DNA of 64,000 nucleotides from a virus. The notes under the pieces are model-generated. The model made no database searches. It saw nothing but the letters and a program-made list of their open reading frames with translations, and had not been told where the DNA came from. The first letter of the stretch is position 1. Every line of letters starts with the position of its first letter. Location of the stretch: IMG/VR virus record IMGVR_UViG_3300036846_000555, positions 1-64,000 of that record; one strand, written 5' to 3'. A program made the position numbers and the translations under genes. Positions 10,672-34,806 of the stretch are shown here, in pieces.

Positions 10672-13485
10672 ATGGACCTCGTCACCATCGCGCGCGAGAA
10701 CGCAACGCTCCGCGAGGAGTTTCTGCGCCGTGGACTGGTCCCCGAGGACGAGCTGGACCAGATCGGCTGGGTGTCGCACTCCGACCTTGACCTGTGGCAG
10801 GAGGCGGGCGTCCTGGAGCTGGGCGTCACCGGATTGCAGGAGACGTGGGGTCACAGCGTCCCCGGCGGCATCCGCGTCGGTAGCGGGCATCACGGCGCGT
10901 GGGGGCTCGGCGCGCTCAGCGGCGACATCTTCAACCGGCGGATCCTGCGCGGCCGCGGCGGCCGGTTCGCCGGAAGCCTCGGCGGCAAGTCAGAGGTGCC
11001 CGGCAAGAGTCACAACCGGCGCATCAAGAACATCCTGCACCCGCCGCGCGTCTCGCGCGTCGAACATCCCGGCGCCAAGAAGGACGAGCCGATCGCGACA
11101 GTCAAGACCGCCCGGGGCATCGGACTGCCATCCAAGAAGCTGAACGTGTACGCCACCCCGCCCGCCGCGCGCGCAGGCGAGCCGCGCGCCACGCCGGGGC
11201 TGCCGGAGCGGATGAGCGCCGCACAGGCCCAGGCCGAGTTCGTCAGCCAGGCCGAGCCCGCCGCCGGGCATCCCGACGAGCTGCACGCGCTCGGCCGCGA
11301 ACGGCTGCGGCGCATGGCCGACGCGGAGCACAAGGCGGGCGTCAGCGCCTGGAAAGCCGGTGACACCGAGGCCGCGAACAAGCATCACCGCAAGGCGGGC
11401 GAGCACATGGCGGCGATCCAGAACCCCGACGAGACGCTCAAGGCGGGCACCGCCGAGATCTACGAGCGGCGCACCAAGCGGCTGGAGAAGCGGATCTCGC
11501 GCACCGTCAAGAAGGCCGGGAAGCAGAAGCGCACCCCGGCCGCCCGCCAGCCGCGCGGCCCGAACGACCTGAGCGCCGCCGAAGCGCAGTTCAACGACGC
11601 CGGACGCGTATCGCAGAAGACGCTGCTGGCCTACGTCGAGCAGGCCGCGAGCCAGCCGTCGACCGCGTCGATGTACCGCGACGCGAACGGCAACTACCAC
11701 CCGTCGCGCGCGGCCTTGCACGCCGACATCATCGACAAGCTGATGCGCCAGCACGGCACCACGACGGTGATGAAGGACGGCGTGCCGGTCGAGGAGGACG
11801 CCGGGCTGAGCGGCACCACGCCTGCGCTGAAGCCGCCCGCAGACGGCAAGCCGACCGTGATCTTCACCGGCGGCGGCTACGCGGCCGGGAAAGGCGGCGT
11901 CGTCAAGCAGCTCAAGCGGCAGGGTCAGTGGCCCGACGACGCGCTGCTGCTCGACCCCGACCTGATCAAGGCCGAGCTGCCGGAGTTCCAGAACGCCGCG
12001 ATGGACGACCCGGAAGCGAACCTGCGCGTCTACGCCGAGGCGTGGGACATCGCGCAGCAGGCGATGAAGATGGCGCAGGAGCGCGGCCTGAACGTCGTCG
12101 TCGACGGGATCACCGACACCAGCCCCGACGAGGTCGCTCAGCGGGTCAAGACCTTCACCGACAAGGGCTACGTCAACCCGCGGATCATCTACGTCAGCGT
12201 CCCGACCGACGAGGCGATCAAGCGCGCGAAGGGCCGCGCCGCGAAGGCCGAGACCCCGGCGGACCGGCGGATGATCCCCGAGGTCATCATGCGCGCCGTT
12301 CACCGCGACGTGTCCGCGACGCTGCCGGGCGTCATATCGCGCGCGAAGGACATGGGCGCCAGCGTCCAGGTGTACGACACCAATCAGGGCATCGACGAGA
12401 AGAGCGGCAAGTTCAACCCGCCGAAGCTGGTCGCCGAGGCGACACCGGAGGGCAACACCCACTACCCGGACCCCGAGGGCTACCAGACGATCCTGAACAA
12501 GGCGCAGGAGACGATCCCGAACGTGCCGGAGGTCGAGGCGCCTCAGCGTGGCGCGTGGCAGACCGGCGGGCAGATCACGTCGATCGACAAGGCGGCCGAG
12601 AAGGCCGTCGGCCGGGATCTGGCAGCGGCGACGCCGCACGCGCCAGAGGCGCATCGCGGCCAGCCGACCAGCGACGTCGGGGAGCTGTCCAGAATCGCGA
12701 AACAGCAGGGTCATCCCGCCTACCAGGCGCTGATGAACGGGGTCGCGGACGCGCTCGGCGCGACCGTTCACGACACCTCGGCGGGCAAGTCGTTCGGCGA
12801 CACCGGCAAGGACATCGCCGCGAACATGGGCCAGACGCACGTGATCATCGCGCCGCCCAAGGACGAAAAACGCGCGCTGGCGAAGGTCGCCGGGCTCGGC
12901 CAGGCCAACAACGTGACCGACCTGCACGACATGGTGCGCGGAACCGTGACCGTGCCGACGGCGCAGGATCTGCCGACCGCGATGGCGAAGATCCGGCGGG
13001 AGATGGAGCAGCAGGGCTGGGCGGTCGAGAACGTCAATCCGCGGCTGGTCGACGAGAGCGGCTCCAAGCGATCCGAGGCCAACGGCTACGGCGACACGCA
13101 ACTGATCCTCCGCGGGCCCAAGAGCGCGGGCGGCATGCTGGCCGAGCTGCAGCTCACCACCAATCCGATGTGGTGGGCCAAGGAGGTCGGGCCCGGCCAC
13201 GATCTCTACAAGCTGGAGCGCCAGGTCACGACTCGCGCATCGGCTGAGAAGCGCAAGCCGACCAACGAGGAGTCAAAGCTCGCGGGCGAGATCCAGAAGG
13301 CCGCCAAGCCGATGTATGACCGGGCGTGGGGCGCGTCGCTGAGCGGCGGCATCCACGGCCACCCGGACGTCGTCCTGGGCGATGGGAAGGAGCGGTCGGC
13401 GAGCGTCGCCAAGATCAAGGAGCTGGGCCGCAGAACGGCCGGGCTGATCAGCGGAACGCCAGCAGCAGCGAGGGCGGCCGCCTGA
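10672..13485 (+). CDS. Large multidomain protein with zeta-toxin-like kinase and RelA/SpoT-like domain
   Basis: 937 residues. The N-terminal third is helical, basic and low complexity, and includes the phage-structural-type motif RGRGGRFAGS near residue 95. Residues about 395-575 form a zeta-toxin/PezT-type P-loop kinase: GGGYAAGKGG (Walker A), LLLDPDLIKAELPE, VVVDGITDTSPDEV and RRMIPEVIMRAVHRD. Zeta toxins phosphorylate UDP-amino-sugars. Residues about 745-855 (DMVRGTVTV, ANGYGDTQLILRG, AELQLTTNPMWW, GHDLYKLERQ) look like a RelA/SpoT nucleotidyltransferase fold, less certain. The first gene of its block, it may be a virion-carried effector or polymorphic toxin; that is inference. No portal or MuF domain is recognisable. 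Confidence 0.7.
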   Translation: MDLVTIARENATLREEFLRRGLVPEDELDQIGWVSHSDLDLWQEAGVLELGVTGLQETWGHSVPGGIRVGSGHHGAWGLGALSGDIFNRRILRGRGGRFAGSLGGKSEVPGKSHNRRIKNILHPPRVSRVEHPGAKKDEPIATVKTARGIGLPSKKLNVYATPPAARAGEPRATPGLPERMSAAQAQAEFVSQAEPAAGHPDELHALGRERLRRMADAEHKAGVSAWKAGDTEAANKHHRKAGEHMAAIQNPDETLKAGTAEIYERRTKRLEKRISRTVKKAGKQKRTPAARQPRGPNDLSAAEAQFNDAGRVSQKTLLAYVEQAASQPSTASMYRDANGNYHPSRAALHADIIDKLMRQHGTTTVMKDGVPVEEDAGLSGTTPALKPPADGKPTVIFTGGGYAAGKGGVVKQLKRQGQWPDDALLLDPDLIKAELPEFQNAAMDDPEANLRVYAEAWDIAQQAMKMAQERGLNVVVDGITDTSPDEVAQRVKTFTDKGYVNPRIIYVSVPTDEAIKRAKGRAAKAETPADRRMIPEVIMRAVHRDVSATLPGVISRAKDMGASVQVYDTNQGIDEKSGKFNPPKLVAEATPEGNTHYPDPEGYQTILNKAQETIPNVPEVEAPQRGAWQTGGQITSIDKAAEKAVGRDLAAATPHAPEAHRGQPTSDVGELSRIAKQQGHPAYQALMNGVADALGATVHDTSAGKSFGDTGKDIAANMGQTHVIIAPPKDEKRALAKVAGLGQANNVTDLHDMVRGTVTVPTAQDLPTAMAKIRREMEQQGWAVENVNPRLVDESGSKRSEANGYGDTQLILRGPKSAGGMLAELQLTTNPMWWAKEVGPGHDLYKLERQVTTRASAEKRKPTNEESKLAGEIQKAAKPMYDRAWGASLSGGIHGHPDVVLGDGKERSASVAKIKELGRRTAGLISGTPAAARAAA

Positions 13486-20165: not shown

Positions 20166-21596
20166 GTGTCGGTCTCCGCACCTCAGCCCGCGGCGCCTGC
20201 TCCGCCACCCGCCGCGGGTGGCGGCGGCAGCTTCGAACAGCTCCATCCCCGTGGGCGGGGTGGGAAATGGATCGTCTCGCACGGCGCCGGGTACGGGGCC
20301 GGAGGGCCTGACCAGACCACCCTGCAGCTTCAGCAGCGCCTGAAGCAGCTCGGCTTCGACGTCCCCGCCGACGGCAAGTACGGTCCGGCGACGAAGCAGG
20401 CCGTCCAGGCGTTCCAGAACCGCTACGGGCTCCAAACGAGCGGCGGCGTGGACGCCGCGACGATGGCGATTCTGCAGAACCCGCCGCCGCAGACGCTCAA
20501 GCAGGCGCAGAAATCGCTGGGGCTCACCGCAAAGGGCACGCCGATCCCGACGAAGACGTCCAAGAAGGTGGCCAAGAAGACGTCCACGGCCAAGACCGCG
20601 ACCGGCGCGACCCGGAGTAAGGGCAAGACGATCTCGTCGCCCCAGGCGACGCTCACGCGGGCCCTGAACGCCACCGTGCAGGGGCCGGGGCATCTCGGTA
20701 ACGGCAACCTCGCTCAGGGCGCGGGCCTGACCGGCACGTCGAGCCCGGCCGTTTCGAACTTGCAGGCGACGCTCACCGCCGCCGGATTCAAGGTCACCAA
20801 GGACGGGCGGTTCGGCCCGCAGACGGAGGCAGCCGTGAGACAGCTCCAGCAGGCGCACGGGCTCCAGGTCGACGGCATCGTCGGACCCGAGACGAAGGGC
20901 CTGCTGATCGGCCTGGCCGCGGCTGCGCCGAAGGCCGCTTCGAAGGCCAGGGCCAAGAAGACCACGCGCGCGATCACGAGCCGGTCGATTCCGGGGCAGC
21001 CCGCCGTTCTGCGCACCAAGGCCGGGACGCCGCGGCACAGCGGCCGGTCCGGCGGAAGCCGGATGAAGCTCCAGCCGCCGAAGAAGGCGCCCGCGACCCT
21101 GAAGTACTCCGCGGAGGTGCCGACCGAGCAGCCCGAGCTGGAGGAGACGACCGTCCAGTTCGGCTACGGCGGCCAGCCGTCACGCTCGATCAAGGACGGC
21201 CGCGACACCACGCCCGCCGCTGACCAGCCGGTGTGGACACGGACCGGCGTCCAGACCGACATCGGCGACCTGGCGATCCCGGACGGCCGTGACCCGGCGC
21301 TGCCGACACCCAGCGTCGGCGAGATCCTCGCTGACGGCCGCGAGCCCGTGCCGCCGCTCTCCGGCCAGACGCTCGCCGACGGCCGCGAGCCTGTGCCGCC
21401 GCCGCCCGGCGACGAGACGATCCCGGACGGCCGCAACTACATCCGGACGGTGTCGCTGCTGGCCGAGGCCGTGCTGGAGCGCAAGGCCGCCAAGACCGGC
21501 ATCGAGTTCGTCTGCGCGCGGGCCCGCGAGCAGGCGCTGCGCGAGCGGCTCAGCGAGGCGGGCTACACCACGAGGAGGAGCAATGACCCTGCTTGA
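20166..21596 (+). CDS. Protein with two peptidoglycan-binding domains and repeat tail, 476 aa
   Basis: The N-terminus has HPRGRGGKWIVSHG, a motif also seen at residue 95 of the product at 10672. Two PG_binding_1 domains follow, about residues 53-103 (LQQRLKQLGFDVPADGKYGPATKQAV) and 197-252 (ATLTAAGFKVTKDGRFGPQTEAAVRQ). A Lys/Ala linker comes next, then four DGR repeats (PDGRDPALP, ADGREPVPP twice, PDGRNYIR). The end is a helix (AVLERKAAKTGIEF...RAREQALRERL) shared with the next two genes. A wall-binding structural or lysis-associated protein; no catalytic domain is seen. Confidence 0.72.
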   Translation: MSVSAPQPAAPAPPPAAGGGGSFEQLHPRGRGGKWIVSHGAGYGAGGPDQTTLQLQQRLKQLGFDVPADGKYGPATKQAVQAFQNRYGLQTSGGVDAATMAILQNPPPQTLKQAQKSLGLTAKGTPIPTKTSKKVAKKTSTAKTATGATRSKGKTISSPQATLTRALNATVQGPGHLGNGNLAQGAGLTGTSSPAVSNLQATLTAAGFKVTKDGRFGPQTEAAVRQLQQAHGLQVDGIVGPETKGLLIGLAAAAPKAASKARAKKTTRAITSRSIPGQPAVLRTKAGTPRHSGRSGGSRMKLQPPKKAPATLKYSAEVPTEQPELEETTVQFGYGGQPSRSIKDGRDTTPAADQPVWTRTGVQTDIGDLAIPDGRDPALPTPSVGEILADGREPVPPLSGQTLADGREPVPPPPGDETIPDGRNYIRTVSLLAEAVLERKAAKTGIEFVCARAREQALRERLSEAGYTTRRSNDPA

Positions 21597-21918
21597 AGAC
21601 CGATTGCAGGAGGCTGTCGACGCGCGCAAGGCGGCGACCACCTCGACTGAGTTCGTCCGCGCCCGCGCTCGCGAGAAGTTCTTCCGGCGCGAGCTGGAGG
21701 AGAAGGAGTTCACCGCGGCGCGCCGCGAGACGCTGGCGAAGAAGGGTCACGCGATGCCGCACGGCGGCTTCCCGATCGAGAACGGCGCGGATCTCGCCAA
21801 CGCGATCCAGGCGCTCGGCCGGGCGAAGAACCCGGAGGCGGCGAAGGCGCACATCATCAAGCGCGCGAAAGCGCTCGGGCTGACCAGCAAGCTGCCGGAC
21901 GGCTGGAACGTGAGCTGA
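21583..21918 (+). CDS. DUF6582-like protein with shared helix, 111 aa
   Basis: ATG 21583 with GAGGAGGAG upstream, overlapping the previous gene. Residues 1-40 are the shared helix (RKAATTSTEFVRARAREKFFRRELEE). The C-terminal part (HGGFPIENGADLANAIQALGR...HIIKRAKALG) matches the phage DUF6582-type domain often attached to capsid proteins. Function unknown; structural association is likely. Confidence 0.7.
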   Translation: MTLLEDRLQEAVDARKAATTSTEFVRARAREKFFRRELEEKEFTAARRETLAKKGHAMPHGGFPIENGADLANAIQALGRAKNPEAAKAHIIKRAKALGLTSKLPDGWNVS

Positions 21919-22373
21919 TGCCCGACGCTCTGGCGCAGGCGGTCGCAGACCGGGTCGGCGCGAAGACGTCGACCGAGTTCGTCCGGGCGCGCGCCCGCGA
22001 GCGGGTTCTGCGCGAGTGGCAGTGGCTCGACGAGCACGCCGAGGAGTGGCTGCCGACCGCGCTGCAGGAGTCCACCAAGACGGCCGGGTACAGCGTCACG
22101 CCGTCACCGTTCTCGCGGAGCAAGACGAGCAACTGGATCGCTCGGCTCGGCGGGCTCCCGGCGTACATCCAGAACGTCGCGAAGGGCATCATGAAGTCCG
22201 GCAAGTCCGAGTCGGAGGCGATCGCGTCGGCGATCGCCGTCATGAAGCGATGGGCGGCCGGGGGCGGCAAGGTGAGCGCCGAGGTGAAGGCGGCGGCAGC
22301 GAAGGCGCTCAGTCAGTGGGAGGCCCTCAAGGCCAAGAACGCCACGAAGAAGGGCGTCAAAGCCGCCGCATAA
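21918..22373 (+). CDS. Phage structural-type helical protein, 151 aa
   Basis: ATG at 21918 overlaps the previous stop. Residues 10-35 repeat the shared helix (GAKTSTEFVRARARERVLRE). The rest (NWIARLGGLPAYIQNVAKGIMKSG, then ESEAIASAIAVMKRWAAGGGKVS) is a helix-rich domain often seen beside phage head genes. The last of three genes with the shared segment. Confidence 0.65.
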   Translation: MPDALAQAVADRVGAKTSTEFVRARARERVLREWQWLDEHAEEWLPTALQESTKTAGYSVTPSPFSRSKTSNWIARLGGLPAYIQNVAKGIMKSGKSESEAIASAIAVMKRWAAGGGKVSAEVKAAAAKALSQWEALKAKNATKKGVKAAA

Positions 22374-31720: not shown

Positions 31721-33226
31721 ATGGGCGCCACCACGGTCACGGACCCTTCCACGGAGACGCTTGAGCTGCGGGAGGCGATGTACGCGCTCCCGCGCAGCGC
31801 CGTCGAGTTCCCCACCGAGCTGCAGGAAGAGCGCGTCCAGCGGCTCGTCGGCCACGGTCTGAGCCTGGAGGAAGCCACCGCCCGCGAGGAGCAGGAGCGC
31901 TCCAAGCTGCTGCCGCTGCACATCCTGCGCCCGTGCGTCGGCAAGGGCAAGGGCCGCCACATCTACGAGGCCAAGATGCTGGAGGAGAACGCCCACAAGT
32001 TCGCGGGCTGGCGCCAGTACATCGACCACCTCTCCCCCGAGGCGCGCCGCGCGGCAAAGGGTCTGCCGCGCTCGATCCGCGACCTGGGCGGCCGGATCGT
32101 GGAGAGCTACTGGGACGGCAGCGTGCCACCCAGCCCCGACAAGGGGTTCGGCCAGGGCGCCGTCGTCGGCTGGTCGCTCCCGACACCGTTCATTCGCGAG
32201 CTGGCCGAGAACGACCCAGAGCTGGTCGAAGCTTCGATCTCCGCGAATGCCACCGGCGTGCAGCCGACGATGCGTGACGGCCGCCGGGCGTGGCTGGTCG
32301 AAGGCATCGAGGACCGCGGAAGCGTTGACTGGGTGACGGAGGCGGGCGCTGGCGGCCGCGTCGTCGCGTTGATGGAAGCTGCCTACGAGGAGGACGGGAT
32401 GGGACTGCTTGAGTCCATGACCGACGAGGAGTTCATCACCTACGTCGAAGAGGTGCGCCCCCACCTGCTCACCGAGCAGTCCGACGGCGACGCCGAGGAT
32501 GCGGAGGACGGCGGCGACGACGAGCTTGAGGAGATGATCGCGCGGATGATGAAGCGCAACCCCAAGCTGAACCGCAGCCAGGCCGAGGCGCTCGCCAAGA
32601 AGGCGCTCGCTCAGTCAAGTTCATCAGTGGCGGAAGCCGAGACCACAAAGGAGACAGACATGGGTGCGATCACCCCAGAGGCGCTCCAGGAGGCTCTCCA
32701 GAGTGAGGACTCTCGCAGCGCCCTGGAGGCCGTCATCGAGCCGATGGTCGAGCAGCGCGTCAAGGCGCTGGTCGAGTCGGCGGTGGCGAGCGAGCGCGAG
32801 CTGATCCGCGCGGAGGCGCATGCTGACGCGGACCGGCAGCTTGAGCTGCGCGACATGCGCGACGTGGCTCACCGGCAGATCAGCGAGGCGAAGCTTCCCG
32901 GAGCGTTCTCGGACCGCGCGAAGGCGCTGTTTGAGATCACCGACAACGGCCCGACGTCGACGCTGGACGTCGTCGACGACGTCGACGAGGGGGGCGCGGT
33001 CACCAAGAAGGCGGCCGACAAGCTCCAGGAGGCGGTGGATGCCGCCATCCAGGATCAGCGCGAGCTGCTCGCCGCGGCGAACCCGACGACCGTCCGCGGT
33101 CAGGGTCCGGGCGCTCCCGCCAAGCGCGGCGAGGGCGACGAGGAGCCGAAGAAGGGCGAGGGAACGCTCTACGGCGCTCTGCTTCAGGAATCGGGAGTCG
33201 ATCCCGCGACAGCGTGGAACGACTGA
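31721..33226 (+). CDS. Capsid maturation protease with scaffold domain, 501 aa
   Basis: N-terminal region with HILRPCVGKGKGRHIYEAKMLEENAHKFAGW, ARLAEN-type SISANATGVQPTM and GIEDRGSVDWVTEAGAGG. These are patterns seen in phage prohead proteases that clear scaffold. The C-terminal half (from about residue 310) is a charged helical scaffold (EALQEALQSEDSRSALEAVIEPMVEQRVKALVESAVAS...). The start is ATG 31721. Downstream order (decoration, major capsid) supports the assignment. Catalytic residues could not be assigned confidently. Confidence 0.75.
   Translation: MGATTVTDPSTETLELREAMYALPRSAVEFPTELQEERVQRLVGHGLSLEEATAREEQERSKLLPLHILRPCVGKGKGRHIYEAKMLEENAHKFAGWRQYIDHLSPEARRAAKGLPRSIRDLGGRIVESYWDGSVPPSPDKGFGQGAVVGWSLPTPFIRELAENDPELVEASISANATGVQPTMRDGRRAWLVEGIEDRGSVDWVTEAGAGGRVVALMEAAYEEDGMGLLESMTDEEFITYVEEVRPHLLTEQSDGDAEDAEDGGDDELEEMIARMMKRNPKLNRSQAEALAKKALAQSSSSVAEAETTKETDMGAITPEALQEALQSEDSRSALEAVIEPMVEQRVKALVESAVASERELIRAEAHADADRQLELRDMRDVAHRQISEAKLPGAFSDRAKALFEITDNGPTSTLDVVDDVDEGGAVTKKAADKLQEAVDAAIQDQRELLAAANPTTVRGQGPGAPAKRGEGDEEPKKGEGTLYGALLQESGVDPATAWND
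32660..33226 (+). CDS. Internal in-frame scaffold protein, 188 aa
   Basis: An in-frame ATG at 32660 (MGAITPEALQEALQSE) follows AAAGGAGACAGAC, a ribosome site with ideal spacing, inside the protease gene. This is the layout of lambda C/Nu3, where the scaffold is made separately in excess. The product would be helical and very acidic. Confidence 0.65.
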   Translation: MGAITPEALQEALQSEDSRSALEAVIEPMVEQRVKALVESAVASERELIRAEAHADADRQLELRDMRDVAHRQISEAKLPGAFSDRAKALFEITDNGPTSTLDVVDDVDEGGAVTKKAADKLQEAVDAAIQDQRELLAAANPTTVRGQGPGAPAKRGEGDEEPKKGEGTLYGALLQESGVDPATAWND

Positions 33227-33669: not shown

Positions 33670-33750
33670 TCGGCCCCTCGGGGCATCATCATGGGCGCGT
33701 TGCGCCTCCCGGGGAGAAGCAGGCAGAACACATCACGAGGAGCAACGCAC

Positions 33751-34806
33751 ATGAACGGCAATCCATATGGGGTCTTCGGACGGCCGATCCGGCTGCTTGA
33801 GGCCTACCGCGAGTGGCGCGACGAGCGGATGCTGGAGGAGGCCGACTCCAAGGCCGACTTCCCATCCTTCCTGTACGGCCCGGTCCGTCAGTCGATGTGG
33901 ACCGGCTACAGCCGCGCCCAGGCGCAGTACCAGCGCTACACCCGCCAGGAGAACGCACCCGACTTCCGTGACCGGCGGCTGCGCGGCCTGAACGGGCTGC
34001 AGGGAATCGGCTACGTGGGCGACCACGGGCACTACCCGGGCATGGCGCGGACGGAGCGTCCGCCCGCCCGGCTGGCGGTCGACACCTACGGCGGCGTCTA
34101 CCAGATCACCCGCCAGGCGATCATCAACGACGACAGCAACGAGCTGCTGAACCGCAACCCGGCCGACATGGGCTACGCGGCCGGGGTGTTCATCCTGCAG
34201 ACCGTGATCGCGATGATCCAGAACCCCGGCAACGCGCCGGACGGCAACCCGTTCTACAGCGTCGCTCGCGGCAACCAGGTGGTCACGCCGCTGTCCGAGG
34301 ACGCGCTCGCGGACGCGATCGGGTTCATGGAGGCCCAGGTCGACGACGACGGCCGCCAGATCGTCGTCACGCCGCAGGTGCTGGTGGTCCGCAACGCCCG
34401 GATGCAGATGATTGCGCAGCGGATCCTGAACTCGACGCAGACCGGCACGCAGATCCAGTACACCGGCGCAGCCGGTGCCGGGTCCAACGTGTTCGACAAG
34501 GGCACGATCAACCCGCTGGCCGGGATCCTGCCCGCCGACGGCGTGATTCGCGACCCGTGGTTCAGCGATTCCAACGACTGGTACCTGTTCGCCGACCCCG
34601 GCGACGTCCCGTCGTTCGCCGTGGGCTTCCTCAACGGGCAGTCGGAGCCGCAGGTGATGCTCAAGGACCCGATGGTCCGGATGGCGCTCGGAGCGGGTAC
34701 CGACCCGTACCAGTTCGAACTCGACTCGGTCGACTTCAAGGTGAGGTCGGACTTCGGCGTGGCGCCTGTCGATCCCAAGGGCGCGTTCCGCTCAATCGTC
34801 CCGTAA
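33751..34806 (+). CDS. Major capsid protein, Mu gpT-like, 351 aa
   Basis: ATG 33751 follows GAGGAGCAACGCAC; the longer frame from 33691 has no ribosome site. Core patterns match the gpT-like HK97-fold capsid family: GVYQITRQAIINDDSNELLNRNPADMGYAAG, FMEAQVDDDGRQIVVTPQVLVVRNA, then SNDWYLFADPGDVPSFAVGFL and VDFKVRSDFGVAPVDPKG. The family builds the icosahedral head of contractile-tailed phages. Its position after the protease and decoration genes agrees. Confidence 0.85.
   Translation: MNGNPYGVFGRPIRLLEAYREWRDERMLEEADSKADFPSFLYGPVRQSMWTGYSRAQAQYQRYTRQENAPDFRDRRLRGLNGLQGIGYVGDHGHYPGMARTERPPARLAVDTYGGVYQITRQAIINDDSNELLNRNPADMGYAAGVFILQTVIAMIQNPGNAPDGNPFYSVARGNQVVTPLSEDALADAIGFMEAQVDDDGRQIVVTPQVLVVRNARMQMIAQRILNSTQTGTQIQYTGAAGAGSNVFDKGTINPLAGILPADGVIRDPWFSDSNDWYLFADPGDVPSFAVGFLNGQSEPQVMLKDPMVRMALGAGTDPYQFELDSVDFKVRSDFGVAPVDPKGAFRSIVP

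Follow-up and report, generated by a model that had tools for sequence, protein, structure and literature searches.

A movable, predicted helical-hairpin unit on three adjacent phage proteins and the LxE junction beside it: a candidate capsid-targeting module

Bacteriophage T4 has a prohead protease, gp21, that cleaves after LxE-type sites, and otherwise unrelated proteins reach the T4 head by way of short N-terminal propeptides that serve as targeting signals (PMC9026906, PMC5694885). The T4 capsid targeting sequence, found in IPI-III and Alt, is an N-terminal peptide of 10-20 residues. The propeptides of head and ejection proteins in giant phages, such as SPN3US and phiKZ, are longer leaders, some of them with identical starts in paralogs, which end in xxE protease sites. 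Effector domains are also packaged with head proteins (PMC5512222), and the polyvalent proteins described in that survey (Iyer et al., 2017) include MuF, zeta-kinase, ParB-type and RelA/SpoT domains.

The DNA analyzed here, which we refer to as the window, comprises bases 1-64,000 of the 122,349-base IMG/VR record IMGVR_UViG_3300036846_000555, from an uncultured tailed bacterial virus whose lineage is one of large contractile-tailed phages. Three consecutive genes, all on the plus strand, each carry one copy of an Ala/Arg/Glu-rich unit of about 31-36 residues, namely, gene 1 (20166..21596), with a C-terminal copy at 21453..21563 (SLLAEAVLERKAAKTGIEFVCARAREQALRERLSEAG); gene 2 (21583..21918), with an N-terminal copy at 21592..21711 (LEDRLQEAVDARKAATTSTEFVRARAREKFFRRELEEKEF); and gene 3 (21918..22373), with an N-terminal copy at 21924..22025 (DALAQAVADRVGAKTSTEFVRARARERVLREWQW). 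A preliminary description of this DNA had reported a common segment at these three termini, and both profile searches and shuffling bear this out. Matches of a profile made from the three copies were confined to these three frames of the window, with E values from 1e-21 to 1e-24 and a next best match at E = 2.8; searching all 122,349 bases of the record at the protein level gave these three places again and nothing further, the extra matches of a later, longer profile covering only the HPR motif region considered below. Pairwise local alignment scores ranged from 85 to 92 and were never equalled in 2000 composition-preserving shuffles per pair, where the highest scores were 53-68. As to the consensus proposed earlier, the segment exists, and no single copy fits it literally: gene 1 reads FVCARARE, gene 2 AATTSTEFV and gene 3 VGAKTSTEFV at the points of departure. 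The absence of similarity between flanks was essentially correctly stated, as the slight similarity that remains with the unit masked was reached by 10, 8 and 58 of 500 shuffles and is of the size expected of Ala/Arg-rich protein.

The copies agree with each other at 18-19 of 31 residues (58-61%), and columns L, A, R, F and ARE are invariant. Where a pair has the same residue, the codon is also the same in 9, 12 and 9 cases for the three pairs; from codon usage alone one would expect 9.7, 10.2 and 8.7. Third positions match at 14-17 of 31 codons, where 13 matches are expected. Since silent sites are saturated while the protein sequence has been kept, the copies are ancient duplications maintained by selection on the protein, and a recent duplication is ruled out. 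A single polyprotein split by sequencing errors is likewise rejected, because relatives have them as separate genes, and genes 2 and 3 can lie as much as about 2.2 kb apart.

We found the unit in 12 IMG/VR contigs, window included. It is present in gene 1 in all 12, although in L041 gene 1 is cut by the contig start and its peptidoglycan-binding part is not visible, and at the gene 2 position also in all 12, weakly so in L047 (E = 0.0015). A copy of the unit in gene 3 is confined to the window and L019, so that just two of the three genes have it consistently across relatives. In L004, L005, L007, L008, L041, L045 and L086 the start of gene 3 is instead formed by the module PYxxxGNxVIRxDTGxVVK..KALAHLRALKANV, while gene 3 of L006 has a short N-terminus; the same WLDExAEEWL..KTAGYSVT domain follows all of these differing starts. 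In L008, moreover, the gene 2 copy is joined to another C-terminal domain. When 21 copies, taken from 10 contigs, were placed in a tree built on few columns, they formed groups for genes 1, 2 and 3 with bootstraps of 92, 87 and 94%; that is, copies sort by gene and not by genome. The unit is missing from seven further contigs that contain homologs of gene 2 or gene 3, a search of isolate phages with the unit gave no match, and tblastn of bacterial genomes with gene 2 found no relative. In the divergent relative L047 (4309-7655), gene 1 has three peptidoglycan-binding stretches and extra modules, and at the gene 2 position the hairpin is followed by HPRDRLGRF in place of the usual domain.

The domains to which the unit is attached can be recognized in other phages. 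That of gene 2, of about 65 residues (..GHAMPHGGFPIENGADLANAI..HIIKRAKALGLTSKLPDGW), recurs as the C-terminal tail of ChisanaKitsune gp30, which is annotated as a capsid maturation protease and is followed by the capsid gene, and as a tail of a GX15bay protein with a portal annotation. Its former designation as DUF6582-like found no backing, Pfam giving no family for the window protein at E <= 1 and only stray hits for relatives. The helical domain of gene 3 (..LPAYIQNVAKGIMKSGKSESEAIASAIAVMKRWAAGGG..) is found internally in Rasputia gp54, also annotated as a capsid maturation protease, and close to the N-terminus of Magritte gp11, adjoining terminase. The gene 2 and gene 3 homologs found in isolate phages lack the unit. 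Because the partner domains occur without it in distant phages, on capsid-maturation proteases or beside terminase, we regard the unit as a movable, lineage-specific module whose attached modules turn up again on head-assembly proteins. The earlier suggestion of a duplicated or shuffled unit thus gains support from unit-free partner domains, from orthologs that have swapped modules and from the grouping of copies by gene; the opposite situation, with the unit built into every one of these unrelated families in distant phages as well, was looked for and is not what was found.

Structural predictions suggest that the unit folds as a helical hairpin. The AlphaFold2 model of gene 2, based on 13 sequences, has a helix at 3-16, a four-residue turn and a helix at 21-54 (mean pLDDT 81, pTM 0.55), and the turn holds extra residues in L086 and L093. 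A fold search of the PDB with this model gave nothing significant, and in a library of viral models several short alignments among the matches at E <= 0.001 fit the gene 2 domain alone. The model of gene 3, with a mean pLDDT of 62, was too poor to use. Sequence searches of solved structures with the unit, gene 2, gene 3 and the presumed protease described below returned no match.

Gene 1 encodes two PG_binding_1 domains (PF01471, two stretches, E = 1.4e-35). The catalytic peptidoglycan-cleaving domain expected of an endolysin was not found in it, Pfam giving binding domains only, and its PHROG endolysin matches span the binding repeats. The C-terminal third of the protein before the unit contains five (I/L)xDGR(D/E/N) repeats within a Pro-rich linker, kept in relatives, and the repeats are possibly a short binding motif. 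Across relatives the gene 1 unit is either C-terminal or internal. Copy 1 ends in LSEAGY, that is, L-x-E-A-x-Y; in the window the HPR motif and the cargo that would follow have been lost, and the protein terminates with LSEAGYTTRRSNDPA within the start of gene 2. In most relatives, in a feature that the preliminary description did not include, the unit runs directly into ..LAEAGLYKEALHPRGRGGKW.., an LxE-A...HPRGRGGKW junction shared with effector-type proteins, and then into variable cargo. This cargo is a zeta-toxin-type kinase in L005 (PF06414, E = 2.7e-24), matches a ParB-like domain weakly in L004 (E = 0.003) and is other sequence in other relatives; in L008 no HPR motif follows the unit. 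With few exceptions, the copies in genes 1 and 2 end in an LxE, which is not part of the gene 3 unit. The window copy in gene 2 ends in LEEKEF, and most gene 2 copies have K or R after LEE; several relatives lack the aromatic. As for gene 3, its LDE is part of the protein's own domain.

The same junction recurs between modules of the very large effector-type, or polyvalent, proteins of this lineage. An exact DNA pattern for HPRGRGGKW identified 28 stretches in IMG/VR, on about 20 contigs, and the consensus of 71 non-redundant contexts is L(-10)-x-E(-8)-A-x-[WYF](-5; 65/71)-x-E(-3; 51/71)-x-L(-1; 62/71)-HPRGRGGKW. A strict LxE occurs in 49 of the 71 contexts, compared with 7.8 in shuffles and with none of 2000 shuffles as high, for a pattern that was spotted post hoc, after inspecting the data; in an out-of-sample check of three new contexts, which are too few, strict LxE was found in none and I-x-E in two. 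The motif also stands at the N-terminus of gene 1 (20244..20270 in the window, plus strand), here with no LxE upstream. Such N-terminal instances have LxE in one of 10 cases, versus 60 of 70 elsewhere (Fisher 3.5e-6); in the lone exception a domain precedes the motif, and the other nine have nothing upstream to release. Across six effector-type frames, no Pfam domain spans a junction. In the window's own genome, three large frames lie directly after the portal gene (L135 6571-15998, equivalent to 92570-101997), each with HPR(G/D)R..G(K/R)W junctions: one is MuF-like, with a weak acetyltransferase match, another combines CCA-type tRNA nucleotidyltransferase and HD domains with DUF7178, and the third has no family match. 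By eye, this last frame contains a HEINHG metalloprotease-like stretch. Among cultured phages, a motif related to the junction is present at the N-terminus of gp67 of Gordonia phage GodonK. The large plus-strand protein at 10672..13485 has a zeta-toxin kinase domain (PF06414, E = 3.1e-22) and is a probable polyvalent effector; its C-terminal part looks RelA/SpoT-like by eye, and it is likely virion-borne. Homology between the unit and the helical region that precedes the junction in MuF-like proteins was considered and ruled out (12.6% probability).

LxEA sequences also mark boundaries in two head genes of the window. In the major capsid protein (33691..34806, plus strand), the conserved part starts at A51, right after LEE50 (phrog_133 match at 51-368, from a profile that covers both protease and capsid protein), and the site reads LEEADS in 20 of 21 relatives and LQEADS in the remaining one. 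In the ORF that precedes it (31721..33226, plus strand), conserved in 10-15 relatives, the protease-like part is bounded by LREAMY (E18) and LMEAAY (E219), and both LxEA-x-Y sites persist in almost every relative whose sequence extends over them. We presume this ORF to be the maturation protease together with an acidic scaffold, from its place ahead of the capsid gene and from its likeness to other such proteins. Pfam, PHROG and PDB gave no match for it; it is probably an unrecognized prohead protease-scaffold fusion.

Taking these observations together, we tentatively favor, as somewhat short of an even chance, the possibility that the unit is a capsid-targeting leader like that of T4, in the form of a hairpin, beside an LxE site where the maturation protease would free the cargo. 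The hairpin would dock the attached protein to the prohead or scaffold, so that the attached module, be it the peptidoglycan binder, a zeta-kinase, a ParB-like domain or the small head-protein domains, would be carried into the forming head. The protease would cut after LxE, at least in gene 1-type proteins with LxE-A-x-aromatic, and the freed cargo could then be ejected together with the DNA. The anatomy of unit and junction is well supported, and from it we infer both targeting and cutting; a maturation-protease site is plausible because LxEA is also found at the capsid start and at the protease-domain ends, with the precedent of T4. One point against it is that the unit of gene 1 is C-terminal or internal, and not an N-terminal leader as in a T4-like model. 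The weakest points are genes 2 and 3, in which cutting is doubtful, because K or R mostly follows the LEE of gene 2 and the LDE of gene 3 lies outside the unit. A broader version of this reading, possible and yet on the unlikely side, is that the injected effectors of this lineage are built as protease-separable cassettes, in which the hairpin or some other leader would target the chain to the prohead, and the junction L-x-E|A-x-(F/Y/W)-x-E-x-L-HPRGRGGKW would be cut by the capsid-maturing protease, setting each effector module free to be ejected.

The unit could instead be a docking or oligomerization hairpin. It would bind other copies of itself, or a single partner in the head or tail, and so hold the three gene products in one complex, with neither head targeting nor removal by a protease. 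The predicted hairpin, the conservation of the unit across unrelated neighboring genes and the gene 3 unit, to which no LxE belongs, all agree with this explanation, which we consider a minority possibility; for gene 3, plain docking fits better than targeting and cutting. What it leaves unexplained is why the same LxE-A junction follows the gene 1 unit of relatives and appears in effector proteins, and why most genomes keep gene 3 without the unit. The earlier proposal of a common docking tag for one partner is plausible in this sense, as it fits a predicted hairpin on unrelated head-region proteins, and is at its weakest for gene 3.

Somewhat improbable, in our judgment, is that the junction does no more than link domains, or acts as a peptide that binds nucleic acid or capsid, with LxE as a mere helix end and the unit as an adjoining spacer helix. 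HPRGRGGKW is basic, LxE is common in helices and absent where the upstream part is Pro-rich, and no protease of known specificity was identified, all of which would suit a linker; it accounts poorly for L, E, the aromatic and E at fixed spacing before the motif, and for the recurrence of LxEA at both ends of the protease domain and where the conserved capsid protein begins. The saturation of silent sites speaks against functionless helix copies left in neighboring genes by tandem duplication, as the protein pattern has nonetheless been kept in two genes of all 12 contigs; such a neutral relic is quite unlikely, even if some genomes have no unit in gene 3, or a different partner domain in gene 2. 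Finally, a chance or low-complexity likeness of Ala/Arg/Glu-rich helices, which biased composition at 69% GC might have produced, is already refuted by shuffles that never score as high, by the unique profile matches and by the invariant columns.

If the targeting reading holds, the hairpin together with LxE-A...HPRGRGGKW would be a readable signature of head-borne proteins and of their release in this lineage, an open question on polyvalent effectors would become a mass-spectrometry test, and the unit might serve as a new tag with which to load phage heads with proteins. The broader pattern, with a standard separator dividing effector modules, is the more valuable lead.

Compared with the polyvalent proteins, neither the hairpin unit nor the LxE-A...HPRGRGGKW linker is mentioned in the main text of the 2017 survey (PMC5512222). 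Several effector domains in a head-gene context are nevertheless found both in relatives, whose gene 1 has zeta-kinase or ParB-like cargo, and in the window's own genome, in the cluster of MuF-like and multi-domain frames after the portal at 92-102 kb. The giant-phage leaders of SPN3US and phiKZ resemble the present unit in their length and, for nearly all gene 1 and gene 2 copies, in a terminal xxE that would be the cutting site, but join paralogs, whereas the unit joins unrelated domains. With respect to the T4 sequence, the differences are that a predicted hairpin of about 36 residues replaces the short peptide, that an N-terminal position is found for the copies of genes 2 and 3 only, the gene 1 copy being C-terminal or internal, and that the presumed protease is not recognizably gp21-like. 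As in T4, however, one short sequence common to unrelated proteins of a single phage, here three non-homologous partners, lies beside an L-x-E site in head-related genes with swappable cargo.
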